Assembly (NCBI RefSeq): GCF_000235565.1
Contig: NC_017527.1
Coordinates: 1,984,001-2,048,000, forward strand
Direction: 5' to 3'
Length of the DNA stretch: 64,000 nt
Source: Methanothrix harundinacea 6Ac
GTDB lineage: Archaea; Halobacteriota; Methanosarcinia; Methanotrichales; Methanotrichaceae
The position numbers and the translations under genes were made by a program. Below the pieces are notes generated by a model. That model was not told where the DNA came from and searched no databases. It saw nothing but the letters and a program-made list of their open reading frames with translations. Shown in pieces: positions 2,247 to 7,131 of this stretch. Every line of letters begins with the position of its first letter. Position 1 is the first letter of the stretch.

Positions 2247-3154
2247 ATGGAGAGGACGAAGAGATATGTCACGGAGCTGATCCTGGGCGCCAAAGGTGAG
2301 GCGCCCGCGGCTCCCAAAGGGACGAATCCCATCTTCGACCAGATGAGGGGGATTGACTGGCCGATAAGATGTACCGTGGGGCCTGGCCTTGAAGGGGCGA
2401 TAGCCTGCAAGAGCCGGGTGGGCTTCGTCAACGGCTCTGAAGGCACCCTCATCTACCGCGGCTACGACATCTTCGATCTCTGCGCCCACTCCACCTTCGA
2501 GGAGGTCTCCTACCTCCTCCTCTACGGCGACCTCCCGACGGAGAGCGAGCTAGCCTCCTTCGAGAGCCGACTGAATGAATACCGCTTCCTTCCCAACACC
2601 CTCCGGACGCTGATGAACGCCCCGGTGGAGAGGATGAACCCCATGGCAGCCCTGAGGCTGGGGACGAACTTGATGCATCAGAGGCAGACCTGGCGGGACA
2701 GCGAGGACGCGAGGCCATCCCTGGAGGACGCCATAGCCTCCGACGAGGACTCGATCCCCATGGAGACCCGGCCGACAGGGGAGAGGCATGCGATATACGA
2801 GTTCCAGAGGCGGCACCTCCGACGGCCTACAGACCCGAGACTGGCCCCCGACGACGCCGAGAGCATGGATAGCTGTATCCACCTGATCGCAGGGATGGCG
2901 ACCCTGGCGGCCGCCATCGGTCGGCTGAGGAGGGGCCGCCTGCCCATCGAGCCCGATCCAGAGCTCGGCCACGCCGCGAACCTCCTCTACATGATGACGG
3001 GGCGAAGGCCGACGCCGGTGGAGGAGAGGGTGATGGACGTCTCCCTCATCCTCCACGCCGACCACGGGATGAACGCCAGCACCTTCGCCTGTCTTGTCGT
3101 CGCCTCCACCATGTCAGACATCTACTTCTCCGTCGATGCGGGGATAGGGGCGCT
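2247..3154 (+). pseudogene. gltA: Citrate synthase, 5' part (interrupted by IS66 element)
   Basis: This encodes the N-terminal 302 codons of a citrate synthase (oxaloacetate + acetyl-CoA to citrate, feeding 2-oxoglutarate and glutamate synthesis). Family hallmarks include GFVNGSEGTLIYRGYDI and HADHGMNASTF. Position 3154 is the last genomic base before an insertion sequence; translation then runs into the element and stops at 3197 after 14 foreign residues. All three catalytic residues lie in the other fragment, so this piece cannot be active. Joining bases 2247-3154 to 4589-5081 restores one frame of 466 residues with IGALNGPLHGGANE exactly reconstructed. The protein carries an extra segment of roughly 50 residues (about residues 150-200), rich in acidic and basic residues, compared with usual ~375-residue prokaryotic enzymes. 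Confidence 0.92.
3147..3154. repeat. Target-site duplication, left copy
   Basis: GGGGCGCT, identical to 4581-4588 on the other side of the element. An 8-base duplication is what IS66-family transposition makes. Confidence 0.93.
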
Positions 3155-4580
3155 GTATGTGTTTAGCTCCATCCTCAATTCATGCGAATTGACCTAGAAT
3201 CCACCTCGACCAGAAAAATTATATAATTCTTTCGCTATACCTGCTAGTTGGGAGTATGCACGAAGAAGAGATAATCAAGCAACTTAAAGCTGAGAATGAA
3301 CGATTAAAGCGTGAGAATGAGTTTCAAAGAGAACAGATAGCGAAGCTTGAAGCTCGACTAGCTAAATATGAGAATGCCCATACTCCGCCGAGCTTGAGAC
3401 GAGGTCGCAAACGGAAAAAAGGGTATGACGAAGGGTTTAATGGGAAACCAGGCCAAAAAGAGGGTCATAAAGGGGTATCAAGACCTCGTGCCAATCCTGA
3501 TAGACAAGTCGAAGTCGCCATAGATCTTTGCCCAGATTGCGGAGCCAAGCTTGGCGATCCTATCAGAAAAGAGTCAAAGATCATCGAGGAAATCCCTGAA
3601 CCCCAGCCGATAATCGTCACCGAATACAAGATTGCTCATTACAGATGTCCATCTTGTCAAAAGGAAGTTGTAGCCAGCGATCATGATCTTCCTGCAGAAG
3701 GCAGATTCGGAAACAATGTAATTGCGCAGACAACGTTACTGAAATACGAGGATAGGCTACCCCACAGGAAGATCCAAAATGCACTGAAGCGATTGCATGG
3801 ACTGACCATATGCGCAGCTACGGTCCTCGATCTGACTCGCAGAGCTGCTGATGCGGTTCAGTCTCAATATGATGCAATTTTAAACAGCGTTCGGAATGCA
3901 CCAATCCTGTATGTGGATGAAACGTCGATAAAGGTCCAAGGAGAGCGTCACTGGATCTGGGTATTTACCACACCATCTGAGACGTTTGTTGTGATACGAA
4001 AGAGTCGTGGGATGAAGGTCCTGATGGAAGTTCTGACAAGAAGATTCGATGGCATCATAGTGTGCGATGGTTGGAAGCCTTATGCCAAATTCACAAAACG
4101 GTTACAGCGATGTTGGGCACATCTACTCCGAGAATCAAAGGACCTTGCTGATAAGATTGAGGAGGCGGTTCCTTTACATGGGGATCTCAAGGATCTATAT
4201 GAAGAACTTACTGATGCTCTAGAAAACGATCCACCACCCGAAGTCAGGATGGGATTGTTGGAAATGGCACGATCAAAGCTCCACCAATGGATTATGAAAG
4301 AATACATGAGTGAGAAAGTCAAAAAGCTAATCGGCAAAATTAGTAACGGCTTCGAGTACTGGTTCACGTTTATCATCCAGCCCGCCGTAGAGCCGACCAA
4401 TAATAGAGCAGAGAGGGCTCTCCGGGAGCATGTCGTTCTGAGAAAGATCATTGGTACACTGCGAAATGAAAAAGGGACTTCGATTCATGAACGAATTATG
4501 ACCGTGCTGGCGACATGGGAGCAAAATGGACTCGATGGCCTAAAGATGCTAAGATCGAGCCTGGTCAGCTAAACACGTAC
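3155..4580 (+). mobile_element. IS66-family insertion sequence (single-transposase type), 1426 bp
   Basis: Terminal inverted repeats are GTATGTGTTTAGCT at 3155-3168 and the reverse complement GTACGTGTTTAGCT at 4567-4580, 13 of 14 bases matching and beginning with GTA as is usual for IS66 ends. Perfect 8-base duplications (GGGGCGCT) flank it. There is only a TnpC-type transposase and no TnpA or TnpB, resembling the compact ISBst12-like branch. It sits inside citrate synthase, and nothing around the junctions has decayed, so the insertion is very recent. Confidence 0.93.
3256..4572 (+). CDS. tnpC: IS66-family transposase (TnpC type)
   Basis: 438 residues, full length for the family. An N-terminal coiled coil (residues 1-45) precedes a basic TPPSLRRGRKRKKG stretch, then a zinc-binding CPDCGAK...CPSCQ segment (about residues 92-135). 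The DDE catalytic triad is visible: Asp in LYVDETS near residue 220, Asp in VCDGWKPY near 271, and Glu in NNRAERALREH near 384. A TATA-like box (attatataat, 3218-3227) 29-38 bases before the ATG suggests a short or absent leader. The stop codon lies inside the right inverted repeat. Its base composition is more AT-rich than the interrupted host gene. Confidence 0.95.
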   Translation: MHEEEIIKQLKAENERLKRENEFQREQIAKLEARLAKYENAHTPPSLRRGRKRKKGYDEGFNGKPGQKEGHKGVSRPRANPDRQVEVAIDLCPDCGAKLGDPIRKESKIIEEIPEPQPIIVTEYKIAHYRCPSCQKEVVASDHDLPAEGRFGNNVIAQTTLLKYEDRLPHRKIQNALKRLHGLTICAATVLDLTRRAADAVQSQYDAILNSVRNAPILYVDETSIKVQGERHWIWVFTTPSETFVVIRKSRGMKVLMEVLTRRFDGIIVCDGWKPYAKFTKRLQRCWAHLLRESKDLADKIEEAVPLHGDLKDLYEELTDALENDPPPEVRMGLLEMARSKLHQWIMKEYMSEKVKKLIGKISNGFEYWFTFIIQPAVEPTNNRAERALREHVVLRKIIGTLRNEKGTSIHERIMTVLATWEQNGLDGLKMLRSSLVS

Positions 4581-4588
4581 GGGGCGCT
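4581..4588. repeat. Target-site duplication, right copy
   Basis: GGGGCGCT, identical to 3147-3154; marks the right junction of the IS66 element. Confidence 0.93.
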
Positions 4589-5081
4589 GAACGGCCCCCT
4601 CCACGGCGGAGCTAACGAGGAGGTAACGAGGGTCCTCCGGGAGATCGGCTCCCCGGAAGGGGTGAAAGAGTGGTACAACACGGCCCGAAGTTCGGGGCGG
4701 AAGGTCCCGGGATTCGGCCACCGGGTCTACAGGACCTACGACCCTCGGGCCCGGGTCCTCGGACCCCTGGCGGGGATGATGGCGGAGTCAAACCCCAACT
4801 GCGATAAGATGTATTCGATCGCAAAGCGGCTGGAGGAGGAGGTCGTCTCGGACCTGGGGATGGAGAAGAAGATCTTCCCGAACGTCGACTACTACTCCGG
4901 CATCGTCTACCACGCCATGGGGGTCCCCGGCGACCTCTACACCGTCCTCTTCGCCGTCAGCCGGGTGGCGGGGTGGACCGCGAGGGTGATGGAGTACCTC
5001 GAGAACAACCGGATCTTCAGGCCCCGGTCCCTCTACGTCGGGGAGTTCGACCGGGAGTACGTACCGCTGGAGAACCGATAG
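4589..5081 (+). pseudogene. gltA: Citrate synthase, 3' part (catalytic residues)
   Basis: This is the C-terminal 164 codons of the interrupted citrate synthase. It carries GPLHGGANEE and GFGHRVYRTYD, with the two catalytic histidines, and NVDYYSG with the catalytic aspartate. An open frame could begin at an ATG inside the transposase gene (4515) and read through the element end into this fragment, giving a 188-residue product. That product lacks the N-terminal large domain and most of the dimer surface, so activity is unlikely. The frame rejoins the 5' part exactly if the element and one target copy are removed. Confidence 0.92.
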
Positions 5082-5132: not shown

Positions 5133-5160
5133 GATGGGGGCTTTGAAATCCGCCCCCATC
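5133..5160. terminator. Inverted repeat between convergent genes
   Basis: GATGGGGGC (5133-5141) and GCCCCCATC (5152-5160) form a perfect 9-base stem with a 10-base loop. It lies between the convergent citrate synthase 3' fragment and alkylsulfatase gene. A role in ending transcription is inferred from position. Confidence 0.45.
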
Positions 5161-6910
5161 ACTTGAATAGGTCCATGAACCCGTAGAACTCCTCCGGCCC
5201 GGCTCCGCCCACCTCGACGGCTCCGCCGGCGACCGCCTCCTCAGGGTTGAGCTTTCCCAGGACCAGGTTCTTCATCGAGAGGGAGTCGGTGTCGATGGTG
5301 AACTTCGGGTCCTCGGGGACCCCCTCCTGGACCTCTACGATCCCCCTCCGGACGTACAGGGCATATTCTGCAGATTCCGAATCGTCCGAGAGGCTGAGGC
5401 CGACGGCGTACTCCTCGTCCAGGGCCTTGGTGGCGTTGAGGCTCACCGCCATGATCCTGAATATCGTCGCCATCGGCATGTAGACGACGATATTCTCGTC
5501 CATGAGGCTGAAGCCGCGTTCGATGGGGATCCTGATCTGGCCCGTCTCTTCGAGGTACTCGGAGAGGATGTAGTTTCTCACCTGGGCGTTCTTGGTCTCC
5601 TCGGCCAGGTATAGCATCGACGAGTTCTTGACCTCTCGGGCCTCGACGTTCTCAGGATCGAGGAGGAGGACGTGGTCGGAGAAGATCATCGCCCATTTAA
5701 CATCACCTTCATCGAGAGACGCTTTCGCTTTTTCTGCCAGCCCGTCGACGCCGCCGGCGAGGTATGCCATCTTCTCAGCCTCTTCCCGCGGAGATGTCGG
5801 GAATATGTCTCTGCTCCTGCCCGTGAACCATCCCATGTACTGCTGGAATATCTGGAAAATGTCCCGATCCATCTCGCCGAAGTACTCCTGCAGATTGGGG
5901 TCTTCGGCTAGGTGGGGAGGCAGCTCGAGGACCTCAATGATCTCGCCGGGGGTCAGCCCCTGGTTCATCAGGCGGACCGTCTGGTCGTGGACGTACTGGA
6001 GGGCGTCCCGGGCGTTGGTGAGGGTCTGGCTGATGTTTTCGGCGCCGACGATTGGTCCACCGCCGCTGTGGATCAGGACCATATACTCGGCGTCCAGGGT
6101 CCTCATATCGTCAATGCTCGCGATGTAGTTCAATGGGTCCCGATGCGAAGCTCCCCGGAGGGTGTTGATGGCGGGGAAGGACTTGTAGAAGATGCCGATC
6201 TGAACGATCACCTTCTTATCCGGCAGCCAGACGTAGTTTATATCCGTCGTCTCGGCGGGGGCGTGGACTATCGTCAGGTTCACCCCGGCTATGTTAGTCT
6301 CCAGCCTCTCCCCAACGGTCAGGGTGGGGGGGAGGTATCCCGAGGGGCCGGGGACCGAGAAGGGGAAGATTCCACCATTTACAAAGTAGCCCGGATCGTT
6401 CTGGAAGCGTATCCCAGCATACTTTACGGCCCGGTATACCTTGATAGGGAAGATCTGGCTCACCACTTCCCTGGGCCCGAAGAGGTGCTCCTCAAAGGTC
6501 TCGTGGGCGATGACCTCCGGAGAATCGTTTCCCGCAAAGACCGAAGCTCCGTTTATGTGGCAGTCGTGGTGGTGGGTGTAGATGATCGCCTTGACGGGCT
6601 TTCTCGAGAATATGTCGTCGAGATGCTCGTTGTAAGCCGCCTTCACCATCTCTGCGGAGGTGGTGCTCTCGCCCGGATCGATGACGATCAGCCCGTCGGT
6701 CCCCTCTATCAGGACCGGGTTTGCGCGACCGTAGCCGACGGCGACGTAAACCCCATCCGTCACGTCGTATACGGTGGGTGGAAACCATCCCGCGTTGAGG
6801 GCGACGAGGTCGGGGTTTGCGCCGACCGCCTCAGGCTCGAAGGCCGATGCCGACGATAACCAGAAGAACAACAATAAAATTATCGCCTTGAAAAATTTTC
6901 CAGCATTCAT
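5159..6910 (-). CDS. Secreted alkylsulfatase-like metallo-beta-lactamase protein
   Basis: 583 residues from the ATG at 6910, chosen because it starts a good signal peptide (MNAGKFFKAIILLLFFWLSSASA) and has GGGAG 9-10 bases upstream; an upstream ATG at 6988 is less likely. The architecture matches SdsA1/BDS1-type alkylsulfatases: a metallo-beta-lactamase domain (about 40-310), the alkylsulfatase dimerisation region (LTNARDALQYVHDQTVRLMN, GLTPGEI, YMGWFTGRSRDIFP) and a C-terminal SCP2-like domain (about 460-583). Such enzymes release sulfate from alkyl sulfates using two zinc ions. Here the usual H-x-H-x-D-H reads HHHDCH: Cys sits at the Asp ligand position, and Asp is one residue earlier. The acidic ligand normally found before the SFPxxxTLRG stretch also appears lost. 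Substrate is therefore uncertain. Confidence 0.85.
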   Translation of the reverse strand: MNAGKFFKAIILLLFFWLSSASAFEPEAVGANPDLVALNAGWFPPTVYDVTDGVYVAVGYGRANPVLIEGTDGLIVIDPGESTTSAEMVKAAYNEHLDDIFSRKPVKAIIYTHHHDCHINGASVFAGNDSPEVIAHETFEEHLFGPREVVSQIFPIKVYRAVKYAGIRFQNDPGYFVNGGIFPFSVPGPSGYLPPTLTVGERLETNIAGVNLTIVHAPAETTDINYVWLPDKKVIVQIGIFYKSFPAINTLRGASHRDPLNYIASIDDMRTLDAEYMVLIHSGGGPIVGAENISQTLTNARDALQYVHDQTVRLMNQGLTPGEIIEVLELPPHLAEDPNLQEYFGEMDRDIFQIFQQYMGWFTGRSRDIFPTSPREEAEKMAYLAGGVDGLAEKAKASLDEGDVKWAMIFSDHVLLLDPENVEAREVKNSSMLYLAEETKNAQVRNYILSEYLEETGQIRIPIERGFSLMDENIVVYMPMATIFRIMAVSLNATKALDEEYAVGLSLSDDSESAEYALYVRRGIVEVQEGVPEDPKFTIDTDSLSMKNLVLGKLNPEEAVAGGAVEVGGAGPEEFYGFMDLFK

Positions 6911-7131
6911 ATTTTTGCTCCCATTCGTTATATTTCGTCTCATCAAATTGCTCTCCGGCGAAGATAAGGAGGATGCTGGGTTCAGCATACCGATTCTGTC
7001 ACCGAGATTTTTTACATCCTGCGGAAGCCGAGAGCTAATTTACAGGACGATGGTAAATGTATGGCGATAGCATCCGATAAAAGCTTTTTGTCGAGCTGGA
7101 GCCCTCGGAAAAAGGAGGAGGCAGCCTGCCC

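Follow-up and report, generated by a model that had tools for sequence, protein, structure and literature searches.

An IS66-family insertion sequence interrupts the only Si-type citrate synthase gene of Methanothrix harundinacea 6Ac, an archaeon that probably makes citrate with ATP-citrate lyase

The only Si-type citrate synthase gene of Methanothrix harundinacea 6Ac is interrupted by an insertion sequence of the IS66 family. In the reading that we consider probable, a recently active element transposed into a laterally acquired gene, found in only a few Methanothrix species and redundant with the ATP-citrate lyase of the family, which is the enzyme most likely to make citrate. The two lyase subunits, ACLY-A and ACLY-B, would be run towards synthesis (acetyl-CoA + oxaloacetate + ADP + Pi to citrate + CoA + ATP), after which aconitase and isocitrate dehydrogenase would convert citrate to 2-oxoglutarate, the precursor of glutamate. 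The disruption itself is an ordinary insertion-sequence event; with its only Si-type citrate synthase broken, strain 6Ac is a natural knock-out.

The genome (records CP003117 and CP003118; PMC3349665) consists of two contigs of 2,559,043 and 11,991 bp, 2,571,034 bases in all. The window, the whole 64,000-nucleotide stretch that was analysed, lies in the 2,559,043-bp chromosome. In the literature searched, the genome paper included, no statement was found on the IS66 insertion or on citrate formation in M. harundinacea. The features of the locus are as follows.

2247–3154, plus strand: 5' part of the Si-citrate synthase gene, codons 1–302 and part of codon 303 (PF00285 profile positions 1–211, 213 bits)
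3147–3154, no strand: left copy of the 8-bp target duplication, GGGGCGCT, a perfect repeat
3155–4580, plus strand: IS66-family insertion sequence, 1426 bp, one of three identical chromosomal copies
3256–4572, plus strand: IS66 transposase, 438 amino acids, the sole gene-sized open reading frame of the element (PF03050, PF13005, NF033517)
4581–4588, no strand: right copy of the 8-bp target duplication, GGGGCGCT, a perfect repeat
4581–5081, plus strand: 3' part of the Si-citrate synthase gene (PF00285 profile positions 207–357, 189 bits), with the motifs LHGG, FGHR and NVDYYSG
5159–6988, minus strand: convergent neighbour, an alkyl-sulfatase-like protein of the metallo-beta-lactamase fold, which also adjoins the gene in G009 and G013

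When the flanks are joined with a single copy of the duplication, an open Si-citrate synthase frame of 466 codons results, with no other damage. The rejoined frame aligns end to end with the intact orthologues of relatives (G009, G011, G013 and G003), at 80–85% amino-acid identity, and the uninterrupted insertion site can be seen in G007, G009, G011 and G013. The G007 gene seems to have a frame break, but a stretch of N in its assembly, and no mutation, accounts for it. Both halves combined make up a full PF00285 domain, and on the 3' side of the break stand all three motifs, LHGG, FGHR and NVDYYSG, in which we place the catalytic His, His and Asp of citrate synthases. As it stands, the frame is divided at 3154/4581; that of the 5' part extends to 3197 and adds a 14-residue tail from the element. 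From its sequence, the interrupted gene appears to be a pseudogene of the Si-citrate synthase family and not a working member, and it should yield no active enzyme. The first-pass annotation, which had described a citrate synthase broken by an IS66 element between perfect 8-base repeats, with halves that rejoin in frame and all catalytic residues downstream, is borne out by the duplication, the inverted repeats, the transposase profiles and the presence of PF00285 in both halves. The sequence immediately before the window encodes a 649-aa protein (L145:3648-5597) in which an acetyl-CoA hydrolase/transferase is fused to a GNAT acetyltransferase domain; in several congeners, as in 6Ac, this fusion gene is located upstream of the citrate synthase locus.

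The same annotation expected the loss to block citrate and glutamate synthesis, unless a second enzyme, for example a Re-type citrate synthase, exists or only part of the population has the element. This expectation is not supported, as the genome carries intact ATP-citrate lyase genes. Another citrate synthase was looked for, as it had proposed: a PF00285 profile search found no second Si-citrate synthase in the 6Ac genome, and the only other match is ACLY-B, a subunit of the ATP-citrate lyase.

L040:11400-10123 and 10126-8279, minus strand: adjacent ACLY-A/ACLY-B pair (best PDB matches 6hxi and 6znw)

The best PDB matches are structures of the Methanosaeta concilii lyase, with identities of 68% and 75%. 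The pair contains the succinyl-CoA-ligase-like and citrate-synthase-like modules, with the phospho-His and the citryl-CoA lyase catalytic residues in place. The motifs GHAG, GHR and NVDG are kept; in the alignment, 6znw has Ala at the position of the Asp. The layout of two adjacent genes is the same in M. concilii, in both organisms an aconitase-family gene comes after the pair, and no difference of kind was found in the sequence. The 6Ac genome is thus predicted to encode an intact two-subunit ATP-citrate lyase, orthologous to the crystallised M. concilii enzyme. The presence of the lyase in some Methanosarcinales has already been published, as stated in a passage of PMC11237513 that cites the 2019 structure paper.

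The remaining genes of the pathway are present elsewhere in the 6Ac genome: a full-length aconitase (914 bits, with a cut-off of 612) and an isocitrate-dehydrogenase-like protein. A succinyl-CoA synthetase of the usual kind was not found in the genome, and for this reason the reductive route to 2-oxoglutarate looks incomplete and 2-oxoglutarate most likely comes from citrate, via aconitase and isocitrate dehydrogenase. The reductive route is weakened by this but not closed, as the genome has a 2-oxoacid:ferredoxin oxidoreductase whose specificity is uncertain.

The distribution of these genes was surveyed in 50 Methanotrichaceae genomes. An ATP-citrate lyase-type match is found in 45 of them (one of these matches is below the family cut-off) and an aconitase in 46, while a Si-citrate synthase is found in six only (6Ac, G003, G007, G009, G011 and G013). 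Most members of the family therefore have the lyase and no Si-citrate synthase, which again speaks against a block of citrate synthesis; among them are the closed genomes of M. concilii (G015, 3,008,626 bp) and M. thermophila (G046, 1,879,471 bp). ACLY-B was aligned for 23 genomes, and the other 22 sequences are 73–95% identical to that of 6Ac. Outside the family, nearly all PF00285-positive Methanosarcinia carry a Si-citrate synthase of the short form and lack a lyase match. The exception is G059, from another family of the class in which the lyase is otherwise unseen, with an ATP-citrate-lyase-type match at G059:C95:28240-28824. Within the Methanotrichaceae, G005 (97% complete) has no match for either enzyme; the gene may have dropped out of a fragmented assembly, or citrate may have another source here. 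All six g9 genomes gave weak 140-aa PF00285 matches that looked like possible citrate synthase relics; the G046 match, the one that was read, proved to be ribosomal protein S19.

With the only Si-type synthase broken, ATP-citrate lyase is the remaining candidate if citrate is formed on the Si face in 6Ac. The lyase direction in this strain is most likely that of citrate synthesis with a gain of ATP, and this would explain why the cell survives the break. The cleavage reaction is near neutral, at about +5.6 kJ/mol, and Desulfobacter postgatei makes citrate from acetate with its ATP-citrate lyase (PMC12743299). Like 6Ac, D. postgatei is an acetate-fed anaerobe in which the lyase is present and a citrate synthase is not obviously needed, but there a catabolic cycle was demonstrated by enzymology and labelling (PMC12743299), whereas in 6Ac the lyase would feed a short biosynthetic branch.

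The most serious competing explanation, which we consider unlikely, is that a Re-type citrate synthase, a homologue of isopropylmalate and homocitrate synthases, produces the citrate and that the lyase serves otherwise, for instance in citrate cleavage. Four PF00682 proteins are encoded in the genome, three of which fall, at the level of a subfamily classification, in the isopropylmalate/citramalate/homocitrate synthase group, and Re-type enzymes also arise from this group (Li et al. 2007, as cited in a passage of PMC3087415). However, a methanogen should require three enzymes of this kind, for leucine, for isoleucine via citramalate and for coenzyme B, which leaves no obvious spare, and the lyase is near-universal in the family.

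Synthesis by the lyase may extend beyond 6Ac. It seems slightly better than an even chance that the family Methanotrichaceae obtains its citrate for glutamate from a reversed ATP-citrate lyase, gaining ATP, and that imported Si-citrate synthases are dispensable for this reason and become lost. If so, they would gain ATP at a step where, in other organisms, the energy released by citrate synthase is lost. Labelling can test which way the lyase runs in methanogens fed on acetate, a test that we judge to be of moderate interest, with a possible saving of ATP near the energy limit at stake. A counterpoint is that purifying selection acted on the Si-citrate synthase up to the break and that five relatives retain it, from which it would seem to be of some use.

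The broken gene itself is of bacterial type and laterally acquired. Outside the family, bacterial enzymes come closest to it (54–64% identical), compared with identities of 32–43% to the citrate synthases of other Methanosarcinia. In the tree, the five Methanotrichaceae Si-citrate synthases used form one clade (100/100) inside a group of long-form bacterial enzymes (100/99). These come from Planctomycetota, Lentisphaerota, Omnitrophota, Spirochaetota and Deltaproteobacteria, are about 466 amino acids long and form one supported clade; the 6Ac copy differs from them in its archaeal host and in its interruption by an insertion sequence. The neighbouring genes of the locus are common to 6Ac, G007, G009, G011 and G013. 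In the ACLY-B tree, the species that bear the gene form one tight group, plus G003, so the gain was a late one. The G003 gene (L149, G003:C20), the sole member of the clade from outside the genus, is located on a 4.5-kb contig with different neighbours, and could reflect either a transfer between members of the family or an error of binning.

The element is bounded by 14-bp terminal inverted repeats, GTATGTGTTTAGCT and GTACGTGTTTAGCT, that differ by one mismatch; together with the perfect duplication they agree with the earlier description of its ends as intact. Its transposase is of the IS66-type DDE kind, and matches Pfam DDE_Tnp_IS66 (PF03050) with an E-value of 2e-42, PF13005 with 2e-6 and NCBIfam NF033517 with 305 bits (cut-off 180). 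Terminal inverted repeats and an 8-bp target duplication are found at all three copies. The element shares with IS66-family insertion sequences the transposase family, terminal inverted repeats that start with GTA and the length of the duplication. Canonical IS66 elements, the only subgroup with the accessory frames tnpA and tnpB, differ from it in this respect: one gene-sized frame is present in its 1426 bp, and neither accessory frame was found. On these sequence features, we class the element as a single-transposase member of the IS66 family and not as a canonical IS66. Single-transposase members are known within the family.

The three chromosomal copies are 100% identical and each is flanked by its own, different, perfect 8-bp duplication. 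Copy 2 (L005, G000:C2:98810-100235) interrupts another open frame, of about 300 codons across the flanks, for an unassigned protein, while copy 3 (L006, G000:C2:3583-5008), between perfect copies of GGCGGACG, does not clearly interrupt a gene. Divergent relatives of the element sequence are found in most congeners. In G010 there are 15 short matches to the element ends, many of them at contig ends, which suggests that this genome carries a related multi-copy element that breaks its assembly.

The ratio dN/dS between the interrupted gene and the intact genes of G009, G011 and G013 is 0.14–0.16, which matches the 0.11–0.17 among these intact genes; the break is therefore recent, and the gene had been under normal constraint until shortly before it. 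Together with the identity of the three element copies, this fits the first-pass view of a fresh insertion. The identical, recent copies show that the element is active, and it is conceivable, if improbable, that the culture was mixed, with an intact allele coexisting and supplying the enzyme while the assembly shows the interrupted one. Against this, the genome is closed, the duplications are correctly paired and the family lives without Si-citrate synthase, so that a coexisting intact allele is not needed. An assembly artefact, with a copy of the element misplaced into an intact gene, is hardly credible: three identical copies are the usual ground for misassembly, but both flanks here share a site-specific 8-bp duplication unlike those of the other two copies. 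As every copy has its own matching duplication, we reject misassembly among them, and the three copies are real insertions with correctly paired flanks. It is just as far-fetched that the two fragments, both translated, come together as a functional split citrate synthase. Each has an open frame, and the element contains a start codon at 4515 that reads in frame into the 3' part; however, the break falls within the enzyme core, directly ahead of the first catalytic His motif, the 5' fragment carries a foreign tail, the 3' fragment would have to start within the transposase gene in another frame, and there is no sign of adaptation to splitting.

Insertion is not the only way in which the gene has been lost. 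G012 is the sister of 6Ac in the ACLY-B tree (98/95), and at the same locus only the last 27 codons of its gene are left (L201:615-535), between the upstream genes, which are conserved, and an alkyl-sulfatase-like gene that is truncated. No element match was reported on the contig of this remnant, so the two species have lost the gene via different routes, by insertion in 6Ac and by deletion in G012. In genus g27 of the class, the short Si-citrate synthase is decaying: the G109 gene (L216) is interrupted by an in-frame TAG and its FGHR motif is altered, and in G106 (L219), G107 (L220) and G111 (L218) only carboxy-terminal remnants are left.
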